Assembly (NCBI RefSeq): GCF_001577365.1
Contig: NZ_CP014513.1
Span: forward strand, 2,666,001 to 2,730,000
From: Frondihabitans sp. PAMC 28766
GTDB taxonomy: Bacteria > Actinomycetota > Actinomycetes > Actinomycetales > Microbacteriaceae
Direction of reading: 5' to 3'
DNA: 64,000 bases
Position 1 is the first letter of the stretch, and each line of letters begins with the position of its first letter. Below are positions 7,866 to 64,000 of this stretch, one piece after another. Made by a program: the position numbers and the translations under genes. The notes under the pieces were generated by a model, which saw nothing but the letters and a program-made list of their open reading frames with translations, ran no database searches and was not told the DNA's origin.

Positions 7866-7941
7866 CCCGTTTTACCTATAGGTGCGGCTTTGCCGCAGTG
7901 TTGTTTCCTGTCGGGAACGCGCTGCCTATAGGTAGAACGGG
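7866..7941. repeat. dispersed palindrome, copy 1 (after gltD)
   Basis: Outer arms CCCGTTTTACCTATAGG (7866-7882) and CCTATAGGTAGAACGGG (7925-7941) are inverted repeats with one mismatch over 17 bp. Inside, TGCGGC-TTT-GCCGCA (7883-7897) forms its own hairpin. The element begins 17 bp after the gltD stop. The same outer arm recurs at 23790-23863 behind rsmB, so this is a repeat family rather than a one-off terminator, though it may act as one. Confidence 0.85.
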
Positions 7942-23736: not shown

Positions 23737-23789
23737 GCGACCAGCCTATCGGCCCCGTTCGTCCGCCCGTCGTCCCTCCGCTGCCCCTT

Positions 23790-23863
23790 CCGTTTTACCT
23801 ATAGGCGAGCCGTTGCCGCACAGAAATAACTGTGCGGCAGCGGCTTACCTATAGGTAAAACGG
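23790..23863. repeat. dispersed palindrome, copy 2 (after rsmB)
   Basis: Two 34-nt arms (23790-23823 and 23830-23863) pair with only three mismatches around a 6-nt loop AAATAA. The outer 16 bp (CCGTTTTACCTATAGG and its complement) are perfect and identical to copy 1 at 7866. It lies 13 bp beyond the restored rsmB stop and 54 bp before rpe. The core TACCTATAGGTA is itself a palindrome. Confidence 0.9.
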
Positions 23864-23875
23864 GCGGGGTGGGGG

Positions 23876-29635: not shown

Positions 29636-29762
29636 GGAAATCCTCAAACGTGGTGCGGGGTGGCTGCTGAACTGGCTCCCCCACTCTACCGTCGCCCCTC
29701 CGACACTCCCCGGGGCCGTCGTCACTCCCCGTCATCCGCTTGCGGGCCCGGCCGGCTGGTTC

Positions 29763-29822
29763 GCGCCACGCCGGCCGGGTCGAACCACGGGATCCGGTGG
29801 CTCGACCCGGATCGCGTGGTTC
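29763..29822. repeat. REP-like 26-bp repeat, inverted pair with 8-bp linker
   Basis: A reverse copy (29763-29788: GCGCCAC, 12 nt, GAACCAC) and a forward copy (29797-29822: GTGGCTC, 12 nt, GTGGTTC) are separated by the 8-bp linker GGGATCCG. The heptamer spacing (19 bp) and the linker length and form (GG-N4-CG) are the same as in the five-copy array at 63049-63240. The forward copy shares the spacer core GGATCGC with that array. Confidence 0.8.
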
Positions 29823-29864
29823 GACGAACCTCGGGCGCCGATCGCGCACCAGCGTCGCGGCCGA

Positions 29865-40243: not shown

Positions 40244-40303
40244 ACTCCCGCGACCGGCACAGGATCTAGTCCGCGGACTAGATCGTGTGCCGGTCGCGGG
40301 AGT
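40244..40303. terminator. 60-nt near-perfect palindrome after the ohr gene
   Basis: Outer arms ACTCCCGCGACCGGCACA (40244-40261) and its exact complement (40286-40303) enclose a 22-nt perfect palindrome (40263-40284, core CTAGTCCGCGGACTAG). Only one G-G mismatch interrupts 30-nt arms. It lies 14 bp after the ohr stop and upstream of pyrR. It is a likely terminator, though no U run follows. Confidence 0.75.
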
Positions 40304-41307: not shown

Positions 41308-41369
41308 CCCTAACCTTTTCGGCTCACTCTGACCGTCCGGACGGTCAGGGCGAGCCGAAAAGGTAAGGG
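41308..41369. terminator. 62-nt nested palindrome after the SDR gene
   Basis: Outer arms CCCTAACCTTTTCGGCTC (41308-41325) and GAGCCGAAAAGGTAAGGG (41352-41369) pair with one mismatch. The inner 20-nt CTGACCGTCCGGACGGTCAG (41329-41348) is a perfect palindrome. It begins 11 bp after the SDR stop on the minus strand, upstream of the ohrR promoter. Confidence 0.75.
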
Positions 41370-43355: not shown

Positions 43356-43415
43356 CACCCCGCGTTTCGGCCGACCTCCCCGCGCCGCGGCGCTGGCACC
43401 TCGGCCGAAACGCGG
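43356..43415. terminator. 60-nt palindrome after the TPR gene
   Basis: Arms CCCCGCGTTTCGGCCGA (43356-43372) and the exact complement (43399-43415) enclose 26 nt that contain GCGCCGCGGCGC (43380-43391). It starts 5 bp beyond the TPR stop and lies 128 bp upstream of efp. It is a probable terminator separating the accessory block from efp. Confidence 0.75.
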
Positions 43416-43419
43416 GGTC

Positions 43420-49108: not shown

Positions 49109-49131
49109 CCGTCTCGGCCGGTGCCGTGCGT

Positions 49132-49200
49132 CGAGGCACCACCGATCAGACGAGAAACGGCCCCGCGGAGGGCGGAATCGGTCGGATCGGAGGTGCCTCG
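49132..49200. terminator. palindrome between the membrane gene and aroQ
   Basis: 20-nt arms (49132-49151 and 49181-49200; common part CGAGGCACC, CCGATC, GAC) pair with two mismatches around a 29-nt loop. It lies 24 bp after the plus-strand stop and 49 bp beyond the aroQ stop, between converging genes, so it is a likely two-way terminator. Confidence 0.65.
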
Positions 49201-49203
49201 GCG

Positions 49204-62455: not shown

Positions 62456-63034
62456 ATGACCTCACGCCCTTCCGCTCTGCTGACCTCCGCCGATCTCCCC
62501 TACGTCGAGCTTCAGGCGGCCGCTCTCGACGGCGACGTCTTCCGTGTCGACCGGGCCTTCTGCTCGGTCGCCGAGATCGACGTGCCGTGGCGCCGCGCTA
62601 CGGCGCTGGCGCCCCTCTTCGGGACGGAGTTCGTCGTCGCCGGGCTGTCGGCCGCGTGGGTGTGGGGTGCGCTGGCGGAGGCACCGATCACGCACGAGGC
62701 GTTCGGTGACACCCGGCGCACGCACCGGGACATCCCCGCAGGGACTCGCGTGCGAGCGGCCCGCACCGAGCCGGTCGACCTGGTCGACTTCGGCCCCGTG
62801 CGGGTCACGTCGCCGGTGCGCACTGTCGTCGACCTCGTGCGGCGGGAGGCGTTCGGCGACGAGGCGGCTGAGGTGGTGCGTTTCCTCGTCTCCGAGCACG
62901 GCATCGACCGCGGCTCCTGCGAGGCTCTGCTCACGCGGAGCCCGCACCTGCCGCACAAGCGCCGCGCGCGTCAGCGCCTCGACGCCGCAGGCCTCGCGGA
63001 TGTCGCCGCGGACGGCGCCACGCGGCTCGGCTGA
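62456..63034 (+). CDS. AbiEi-like protein without an evident winged helix
   Basis: 192 residues from ATG 62456. The region FVVAGLSAAWVWGAL, the TRRTHRDIPAGTRVRA stretch and VRVTSPVRTVVDLVRREAF resemble the C-terminal part of AbiEi-type antitoxins and the many solitary actinobacterial proteins of that shape. The usual N-terminal winged helix is not obvious, and no AbiEii nucleotidyltransferase toxin gene is adjacent. It is therefore probably not a working toxin-antitoxin pair. A REP-like array begins 14 bp after its stop. Confidence 0.6.
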   Translation: MTSRPSALLTSADLPYVELQAAALDGDVFRVDRAFCSVAEIDVPWRRATALAPLFGTEFVVAGLSAAWVWGALAEAPITHEAFGDTRRTHRDIPAGTRVRAARTEPVDLVDFGPVRVTSPVRTVVDLVRREAFGDEAAEVVRFLVSEHGIDRGSCEALLTRSPHLPHKRRARQRLDAAGLADVAADGATRLG

Positions 63035-63048
63035 CGCGATGGCTTACC

Positions 63049-63240
63049 GTGGTGCAACGGGCGCCGCGTGGTGCAACGGCTCAAGCCCCTCAGGGTCGCA
63101 CCACGCGATCTCGTTTGCACCACGGGAAGCGGTGGTGCGACGGGGATGCCGTGGTGCGACGTGGGAGGCGGCTCCAGGTGGCACCATGCGATCTCGTTTG
63201 CACCGCGGTCTACGTTAGTGCGACGGGGATCGCGTGGTGC
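63049..63240. repeat. REP-like array: five alternating 26-bp repeats
   Basis: Forward copies at 63049-63074, 63132-63157 and 63215-63240; reverse copies at 63098-63123 and 63181-63206. Each copy is GTGGTGC, 12 nt, GTGGTGC (or complement). Linkers alternate 23, 8, 23, 8 bp exactly, giving an 83-bp period. The 12-nt spacer is GACGGGGATCGC-like in forward copies and GCGATCTCGTTT in both reverse copies. The design is that of bacterial interspersed mosaic elements. It fills the gap between the AbiEi-like gene and rel. Confidence 0.93.
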
Positions 63241-63251
63241 GAGAGCGCGGC

Positions 63252-64000
63252 TCAGCCGCCCGAGACGCGGTAGACGTCGTAGACGGCATCGATGCGTCGC
63301 ACGGCATTGAGCACCCGGTCGAGGTGGGTGGTGTCGCCCATCTCGAAGACGAACCGGCTGAGAGCCAGGCGTTCGGACGAGGTCGAGACCGTCGCCGAGA
63401 GGATGTTGACGTGGTGCTCGGAGAGCACGCGCGTGACGTCCGACAAAAGGCCCGACCGATCGAGCGCCTCGATCTGGATCTGCACCAGGAAGACGCTCTT
63501 CGACGAAGGAGCCCACGAGACCTCGATCATGCGCTCGGGCTCGGCCATCAGGCCCTGCACGTTGTGGCACGACGCCTGGTGCACGCTGACGCCCTGACCG
63601 CGGGTGATGAAGCCGACGATCTGGTCGCCCGGCACCGGCGTGCAGCACTTGGCGAGCTTGACCAGGATGTCGGGCGCGCCGCGGACGAGGACGCCGGAGT
63701 CGCTGTTGCGCAGTGGCCGTGGCCGACCCTTCGACGGGAACTCGAGGTCGAGATCGGTGTCGTCGTCGGCCTGCTCTTGGACCGCGGCGAGGATCTTCTC
63801 GATGACGGACTGCGTCGAGATGTGGCCCTCGCCGACCGCGGCGTACAGCGCCGTGAGGTCGTCGTAGCGCATCGCCGTCGCCACCTCGGCGATGCTGTCC
63901 TGGCTCATCAGCTTCTGCAGCGGCAGGTTCTGCTTGCGCATGGCGCGTGCGATCGCGTCCTTGCCCTGTTCGACGGCCTCGTCGCGGCGCTCCTTGGTGA
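63252..64000 (-). CDS. rel: (p)ppGpp synthetase/hydrolase Rel, C-terminal part, start outside window
   Basis: 249 codons up to the stop at 63252; the frame is open at 64000. Visible are the end of the TGS/helical region (QNLPLQKLM), the conserved-cysteine domain (LAKCCTPVPGDQIVGFITRGQGVSVHQ, key part KCCTPVPGD) and the C-terminal ACT domain (LLSDVTRVLSEHHVNILS). These sense uncharged tRNA on the ribosome and regulate synthesis and hydrolysis. The catalytic domains lie beyond the window. Confidence 0.93.
   Translation of the reverse strand, partial: TKERRDEAVEQGKDAIARAMRKQNLPLQKLMSQDSIAEVATAMRYDDLTALYAAVGEGHISTQSVIEKILAAVQEQADDDTDLDLEFPSKGRPRPLRNSDSGVLVRGAPDILVKLAKCCTPVPGDQIVGFITRGQGVSVHQASCHNVQGLMAEPERMIEVSWAPSSKSVFLVQIQIEALDRSGLLSDVTRVLSEHHVNILSATVSTSSERLALSRFVFEMGDTTHLDRVLNAVRRIDAVYDVYRVSGG

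Follow-up and report, generated by a model that had tools for sequence, protein, structure and literature searches.

Introduction

To our knowledge, RAYTs are the only dedicated proteins known for spreading short palindromic repeats in bacteria. In the sections of the literature drawn on here, REP and REPIN sequences (with their RAYTs) form repeat families that each lie beside one single-copy gene, for which co-evolution with the repeats has been proposed and which is held to be immobile (PMC3116915, PMC3733652). The CGTC-tagged REPs are presented, in part of the second of these papers, as palindromic repeats without a dedicated transposase, drawn from five phyla of which Actinobacteria is not one (PMC3733652). 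On the protein side, extracts of the relevant papers state that AbiEi antitoxins bind inverted repeats and autoregulate (PMC7319586), and describe a Caulobacter DUF559 protein as a Vsr-like PD-(D/E)XK enzyme (PMC12907096). Among the matching passages listed for the open-access literature, a body which leaves most subscription papers and all preprints outside, none connects palindromic repeats dispersed over a genome with DUF559, AbiEi or Vsr.

The locus considered here lies near the end of a 64,000-nucleotide stretch of Frondihabitans sp. PAMC 28766 (C1:2666001-2730000; the genome has four contigs and totals 4.77 Mb), which we refer to in its entirety as the window. Judged by the rel protein, the closest named genome is that of Frondihabitans sp. 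PhB188 (97%). An earlier note, made from the letters of the window, had read it as an actinobacterial counterpart of the enterobacterial BIMEs.

Structure of the array

The five 26-bp copies described in that note were all found, at 63049-63074 (+), 63098-63123 (-), 63132-63157 (+), 63181-63206 (-) and 63215-63240 (+), and the linkers between them measure exactly 23, 8, 23 and 8 bp, as claimed. The two GTGGTGC heptamers attributed to each copy are intact in three of the five, the last two copies carrying two mismatches each. Reading the copies as 26-8-26 inverted pairs yields a 60-bp palindrome of the form box7-12-box7-8-box7'-12-box7', and the natural unit is this 60-64 bp four-box palindrome, an inverted pair linked by 8 bp, rather than alternating REP monomers. 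The array, at 63013-63242, comprises three such palindromes of what we term family A, with a period of 83 bp, the first being recognised through a covariance model. The locus contains the following features:

62456-63034 (+): upstream neighbour gene; AbiEi_1 (PF09407), E 4.6e-5, its sole family match; a neighbour and not the cognate gene
63013-63076 (unstranded): palindrome 1, family A; covariance model E 1.7e-7 / 3.1e-6; 16 of 26 outer pairs; left arm decayed and overlapping the last codons of the upstream gene
63096-63159 (unstranded): palindrome 2, family A; boxes at 63098-63104 and 63117-63123, 8-bp centre at 63124-63131, boxes at 63132-63138 and 63151-63157; E 3.6e-18; in the model-building set
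63179-63242 (unstranded): palindrome 3, family A, one 83-bp period on from palindrome 2; E 2.6e-15; in the model-building set; BLAST match to the flanks of gene C1:93270
63252-63998 (-): 3' part of rel (RelA/SpoT family), convergent neighbour; RelA_AH_RIS and ACT domains on 63252-63941

With up to three mismatches allowed, the heptamer pattern matches the window 25 times, against 13.0 expected (sd 3.7, largest 24), and none of 100 shuffles reached 25. At the rel locus of 80 other records the four-box palindrome was absent under the scan used; a looser scan returned three palindromes in 675 kb versus one in shuffled sequence. The viral contigs scanned for the heptamer motif gave no match.

Family A across the genome

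The earlier note had made its reading depend upon the motif recurring beyond the window. Taken literally, the motif does not recur: the exact heptamer pattern occurs at three places genome-wide, all within the array, and with up to two mismatches there is no enrichment (163 matches versus 156 in a reversed control). The fuller consensus, in contrast, does: the family A consensus arm has 20 matches in the genome and none in the reversed control, and at E values of 5e-5 or lower the covariance model retrieves 27 palindromes, every one of them on C1, the three smaller contigs having none. This model was built from 18 copies, all of which are among the 27, and 11 rows at E 0.01 to 10 were excluded. 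One further copy lies within the window:

29761-29824 (unstranded): fourth family A copy of the window, intergenic; E 7.2e-19; in the model-building set; BLAST match to both flanks of gene C1:93270

By the gene calls made here, twelve of the 27 palindromes are located at nine convergent sites, ten at nine tandem sites and three at divergent sites, while two fall inside one ORF call, which we think is too long. The expectation of an interspersed, mostly intergenic palindromic repeat of fixed geometry was borne out.

Across the 18 copies, information per column is highest in the boxes (1.59 bits), lower in the spacers (1.22) and lowest in the centre (0.86). Covariation between the arms does not exceed what column make-up alone gives, paired cells amounting to 79.8% versus 79.6% in shuffles. 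The symmetry of family A may therefore be explained equally well by four protein-binding half-sites or by a selected hairpin, and a need for the hairpin in this family is unsupported. The consensus starts TCGAACCACG and is near-symmetrical; no GTAG or CGTC tag was seen in it by eye.

A repeat-flanked gene that is not a RAYT

The earlier note suggested looking for a Y1-type RAYT gene flanked by the same repeat. A flanked gene does exist, C1:93270-94271, enclosed by two family A palindromes at C1:93169 and C1:94344, but it is not of the Y1/RAYT kind. Its 318-residue protein (P0001) contains an AbiEi-like region at residues 35-149 (PADLOC AbiEi, E 1e-12), and AbiEi_4 is matched in 21 of 57 homologues. 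Pfam returned no match on P0001 itself, DUF559 and MTES_1575 included; NCBIfam had no match for the partner protein, and a P0001-type profile found none among solved structures. The C-terminal part is assigned to a nuclease domain because homologues are DUF559/REase_MTES_1575 proteins: two paralogues in the same genome match this Pfam domain below the curated cut-off, while the homologues P0107 (DUF559) and P0113 (DUF559 and REase_MTES_1575) exceed it. Residues D237, E248, D250 and G251 of the nuclease-like motif are invariant in all 57 aligned homologues, and the acidic residues D237, E248 and D250 are putatively catalytic. A loose form of the motif is present in 59 of 69 proteins of the genus, the other ten being broken, wrongly framed or variant. 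The cognate protein is accordingly best described as a predicted fusion of an AbiEi-like DNA-binding region and a Vsr/DUF559-like PD-(D/E)XK nuclease domain. The AbiEi_1 gene at 62456-63034, adjoining the array, was considered as the cognate gene and rejected, as it has no nuclease-domain match and is absent from the cognate-type profile matches.

The palindromic and intergenic character of the repeats, their alternating arms and their short and long linkers would all suit classical BIME or REP elements moved by a RAYT, a Y1 HUH transposase, as the earlier note had proposed. Y1_Tnp (PF01797), however, finds no match in this genome or elsewhere among the seven Frondihabitans genomes, and of 60 genomes scanned in total 3 have one; as a positive control, the same model matches E. 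coli and four others of 14 control genomes. Together with a family A consensus devoid of the GTAG tag and a flanked gene of AbiEi-like/Vsr-like type, this leaves movement by a RAYT refuted for these genomes, short of a Y1 protein that Pfam fails to recognise, and with almost no credence. What survives of the BIME-like design is the dispersed palindromes, the fixed geometry and the repeat-flanked gene; what does not is the composition, which is a single four-box palindrome beside a non-RAYT gene. The logic is alike, but we do not class the array as REP/RAYT because the defining Y1-transposase test fails.

Palindromes beside partner-type genes

A first look at fetched loci, a biased sample, placed relatives of the C1:93270 gene beside palindromes. 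A profile of six partner-type proteins gave 73 matches representing 69 loci across all seven Frondihabitans genomes, with 17 matches in the genome under study. Genes were called by a home-made codon score, and a flank was counted as positive when a palindrome with at least 20 of 26 outer pairs lay no more than 450 bp from the gene. By this measure 45 of 69 partner-type genes have a nearby palindrome, compared with 30 of 417 control genes drawn from three of the seven genomes (p 4e-26); without the five seed genes the count is 43 of 64. Two of the 45 positives (L292, L320) score through simple GC-rich repeats, though L292 also has a real flanking hairpin. Palindromes on both sides occur at 8 of 69 partner-type genes versus none of the 417 controls, and far windows, 1020-1470 bp away, contain a palindrome in 3 of 69 cases.

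The association extends to other genera. Within the bacterial family, 17 of 27 genes (one from each of 27 other genera, being the best-scoring gene of the best-scoring genomes among 45 that matched, hence not a random sample) have a palindrome nearby and 0 of 27 have one in the far window. A Curtobacterium gene which helped seed the finding (L324) was left out of this count as already seen; it misses the cut. At class level, the 29 best-scoring loci from 61 matching genomes, again not random, were reduced to 25 by dropping four incomplete loci, and palindromes lie near 10 of 25, while 0 of 25 have one in the far window.

Half of the partner-type genes in the genome under study reach the cut (8 of 16). 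By eye, most of the eight below it are flanked on at least one side by repeats that are longer, weaker or arranged in tandem, L294 being doubtful. Where both flanks contain a palindrome with at least 18 pairs, the two usually agree in sequence type, with a mean similarity of 0.74 versus 0.38 for mismatched pairs; similarity is at least 0.6 in 35 of 41 genes compared with 0.8% of mismatched pairs. Palindromes reaching the cut of 20 number 33 on the 3' side of the gene and 20 on the 5' side, and 19 of the 3' ones are centred 21-47 bp from the end of the profile match.

Inverted-repeat ends and dispersal might equally be expected of miniature inverted-repeat elements of a DDE insertion sequence that has escaped recognition, with the nuclease gene as a passenger between two copies. 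Across many genera, however, the repeats differ while the gene between or beside them belongs to one family, which makes this explanation highly improbable.

Tandem arrays were noted beside two nuclease genes. Beside a nuclease gene with in-frame stops in another Frondihabitans genome (L204, from 9999) there is an array of box repeats with a 19-bp period, and the right flank of another nuclease gene (L285) contains a tandem array of about 80 bp of GCCCGGCAGTTCG units, with a look-alike at L185 12376.

Other palindrome families

Family A is one of several such families in the window, the others being represented by:

7866-7941 (unstranded): second palindrome of the ACCTATAGG family
23784-23869 (unstranded): longer palindrome of the ACCTATAGG family; cognate nuclease gene C1:1280200
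40244-40303 (unstranded): family D palindrome; cognate nuclease gene at about C1:3249711-3250591
41308-41369 (unstranded): family B palindrome (CCTTACCTTTTCGGC arms); an orphan for which no cognate gene was found
43357-43418 (unstranded): family E palindrome; cognate nuclease gene C1:2104110
49129-49203 (unstranded): hairpin of a further family; cognate nuclease gene C1:2403396

Family B is the most abundant family seen, with 98 arm matches in the genome against none in the control. No partner gene was found in 34 loci around family B copies, which represent part of all copies, and no family B core occurs in the 16 nuclease loci of the genome.

Palindromes of 60 bp with other sequences number 31 in 444 kb around family A copies and 11 in 400 kb at round coordinates; among relatives, G002 has 9 in the 220 kb sampled and G001 has 5 in 80 kb. 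Shuffled versions of the stretches from the chromosome, G002 and G001 yielded none each. The 100 kb sampled from the smaller contigs of the genome gave just three AT-rich tandem palindromes; one AT-rich palindromic tandem repeat on the smaller contig C3 (L237 340-440) is unlike the chromosomal palindromes.

The palindromes of six genomes fall into 32 clusters. Across these, the outer 7 bp of the arm recur at an offset of 19 with an identity of 0.50, compared with 0.28-0.33 at offsets 10-18 and 20-23, and the 45 gene-flanking palindromes behave similarly (0.505 versus 0.25-0.36 at other offsets). Box identity at offset 19 is at least 0.65 in 12 of 32 clusters, or 9 of 27 without CCAC-type clusters. 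One geometry is thus common to otherwise unlike sequences, though not to every family. Direct tandem repeats of 19 bp make up degenerate elements at L190 9949-10013 (C1:3416149 of the same genome) and at about L193 9957, giving the impression of a box spacing that is able to grow by tandem repetition.

A probable pairing of one gene with one repeat family

Dispersed palindromes mostly find their closest gene-flanking counterpart in their own genome. Among 72 of them, 52 reach a similarity of at least 0.60 to a palindrome beside a gene, and for 40 of the 52 the best match is in the same genome, compared with 8.0 expected. These palindromes come from a biased set around model matches and a "random" set at round coordinates, the latter hand-picked by the analyst; adding one hand-picked flank palindrome, whose score of 16 is below the cut of 18, gives 40 of 53 instead. 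For the round-coordinate loci the figure is 14 of 16 versus 2.3 expected, and without CCAC types it is 23 of 26 versus 4.1.

Repeats and proteins also diverge together. Where proteins from different genomes are at least 45% alike, their palindromes are 0.482 alike versus 0.398 when permuted (sd 0.006), a value reached in none of 500 permutations, in a set where the reading frames of some protein pieces are wrong or broken (10 of 69 without the motif). The co-divergence is partial: palindromes are at least 0.65 alike in 7 of 74 pairs at protein identities of at least 50%, versus 1 of 1025 pairs below 45%.

Within the window, 7 of 10 palindromes, representing five of six families, have as their best BLAST match the flanks of one nuclease gene each in the same genome, in some cases followed by a second, weaker match at E 0.04-0.05. 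The middle palindrome of the array, 63096-63159, resembles the flanks of its gene by whole-length similarity only (0.72). For 63013-63076 the sole BLAST match in the genome consists of 16 bp near another nuclease gene, and its assignment to family A is consequently made via the covariance model.

Placement and possible turnover at gene ends

An unguided sample of 25 palindromes contained none in coding sequence. Twelve of them lie between convergent, 11 between tandem and 2 between divergent genes, against a background of 60, 190 and 77 (OR 4.1, p 0.0012), and 17 of 25 are no more than 60 bp from a stop codon.

Relatives were compared at two orthologous sites. One is a convergent 3' end where the genome under study has a palindrome of family D, and where palindromes of other sequence, different in each case, stand in G001, G002, G005 and G006; that of G001 resembles one beside a G001 nuclease gene (L260). 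G004 has, by eye, a U-tract hairpin at this site, and the scan used found none in G003. In G006 the site (L356) is a single 847-bp intergenic gap with an array of ten palindromes, in which two types alternate. At the second site, for which G001 and G002 were not comparable, there is another palindrome in G006, a weaker one (17/26) in G005 and a hairpin, seen by eye, in G004. Among the nuclease genes, C1:2442387 adjoins the same neighbour in G002 and G004, two of six other genomes, and lies within 12 kb of it in a third, G005. These comparisons fit recurrent replacement of 3'-end hairpins together with what may be slow descent of the gene, two sites being few. An unsystematic look for target duplications turned up no clean empty site bearing one.

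Placement of this kind raises the question of whether the repeats are simply bidirectional terminators, made similar within a family by ordinary gene conversion in which the nuclease has no part. Proximity to stop codons, the four different palindromes and one U-tract hairpin at a single orthologous 3' end, and strong RNA folds (z -3.8 to -13.0 for eight elements) all agree with such a proposal. It leaves unexplained, however, why one gene family is flanked, why its two flanks match and why repeat and protein co-diverge, and no T-run was seen by eye beside the window array; as a complete account we regard it as distinctly improbable. A terminator role for the window array is nevertheless plausible, since the array lies between convergent genes and relatives have other hairpins at the two other sites.

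The main rival is a regulator-operator relationship, in which the AbiEi-like protein represses its own gene via the palindromes, the dispersed copies act as a regulon or as decoys, and the nuclease-like domain is secondary. The behaviour of AbiEi antitoxins, which according to the portion of the work cited bind inverted repeats and autoregulate (PMC7319586), offers a precedent; the protein contains an AbiEi region, the four-box layout suits a bound protein, and it is the boxes that are most informative while the arms lack covariation. An operator sits less comfortably with the 3' excess of gene-flanking palindromes (33 versus 20), with dispersed copies that favour convergent pairs (12/25, OR 4.1, p 0.001) and occur just twice in 25 between divergent genes, and with family A neighbours whose functions look unrelated by eye from their protein starts. 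We consider this reading unlikely, if less so than the others weighed above.

Proposed explanation

We favour, with a probability of roughly 0.6, an explanation in which the array represents three copies of the dispersed family A palindrome, the family is paired with a repeat-flanked AbiEi-like/nuclease gene, and the protein recognises the boxes and, by cutting, spreads or keeps the copies. The components of this explanation differ in strength. The repeat, its geometry, the flanking of genes, the same-genome matches and the degree of co-divergence are established at the level of sequence. Binding of each palindrome by its partner protein is likely, because of the co-divergence and of AbiEi biology as given in the cited extract (PMC7319586). 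Cutting by the protein, and thereby spread or retention of the repeat, is a further step which we infer.

Mechanistically, the protein would recognise the boxes of its own palindrome, and cutting or nicking would allow copies to spread and be kept. Copies would land mainly at the 3' ends of genes, where a hairpin may be tolerated or even useful, probably as a bidirectional terminator. The logic would be like that of REP and RAYT, yet the system would not be a RAYT system.

A more general proposal, on which we would place even odds, is that repeat spreading free of HUH enzymes occurs across the class Actinomycetes, with AbiEi-like/Vsr-like nucleases each recognising and propagating a private palindrome family, many of them four-box, which moves into 3' gene ends to serve as the terminators of the cell. 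Genome-wide hairpin sets would, if this is true, be replaced lineage by lineage.

Confirmation would have several consequences. Firstly, a second and unrelated protein family would be tied to palindrome families, which would point to more than one origin of the REP way of life. Secondly, a function would be suggested for proteins currently named just AbiEi-like antitoxin or hypothetical. Thirdly, many natural protein-DNA pairs with readable specificity would become available, a part of them with the 19-bp box spacing. The intergenic hairpins of many Actinomycetes, as well as the turnover of terminators, could also find an explanation.

Comparison with known systems

Several described systems share features with the one proposed here. 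Like REP and REPIN sequences with their RAYTs, as portrayed in the sections cited above, the repeats are dispersed intergenic palindromes in families that mostly appear tied to one gene each; unlike them, they are associated with an AbiEi-like/Vsr-like nuclease fusion instead of an HUH Y1 enzyme, consist of a single 60-bp four-box palindrome and lack the GTAG tag. They share with the CGTC-tagged REPs, to the extent that these are covered in the cited part, a palindromic form without a Y1 partner, but differ in having a partner gene of another kind. The AbiE type IV toxin-antitoxin system, so far as the extract on its antitoxin AbiEi describes it, is similar in its AbiEi-like DNA-binding region and in the inverted repeats near the gene, whereas the present proteins have a predicted C-terminal Vsr/DUF559-like domain and the repeats are dispersed through the genome and also found at the 3' side. 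The nuclease-type motif, and the DUF559 and REase_MTES_1575 matches in homologues, recall the Vsr/DUF559 endonucleases, from which the partner proteins are distinguished by fusion to an AbiEi-like region and by their tie to a repeat family. Finally, a stable hairpin at 3' gene ends is common to these repeats and to intrinsic terminators, from which the window array differs, by eye, in its missing T-run.
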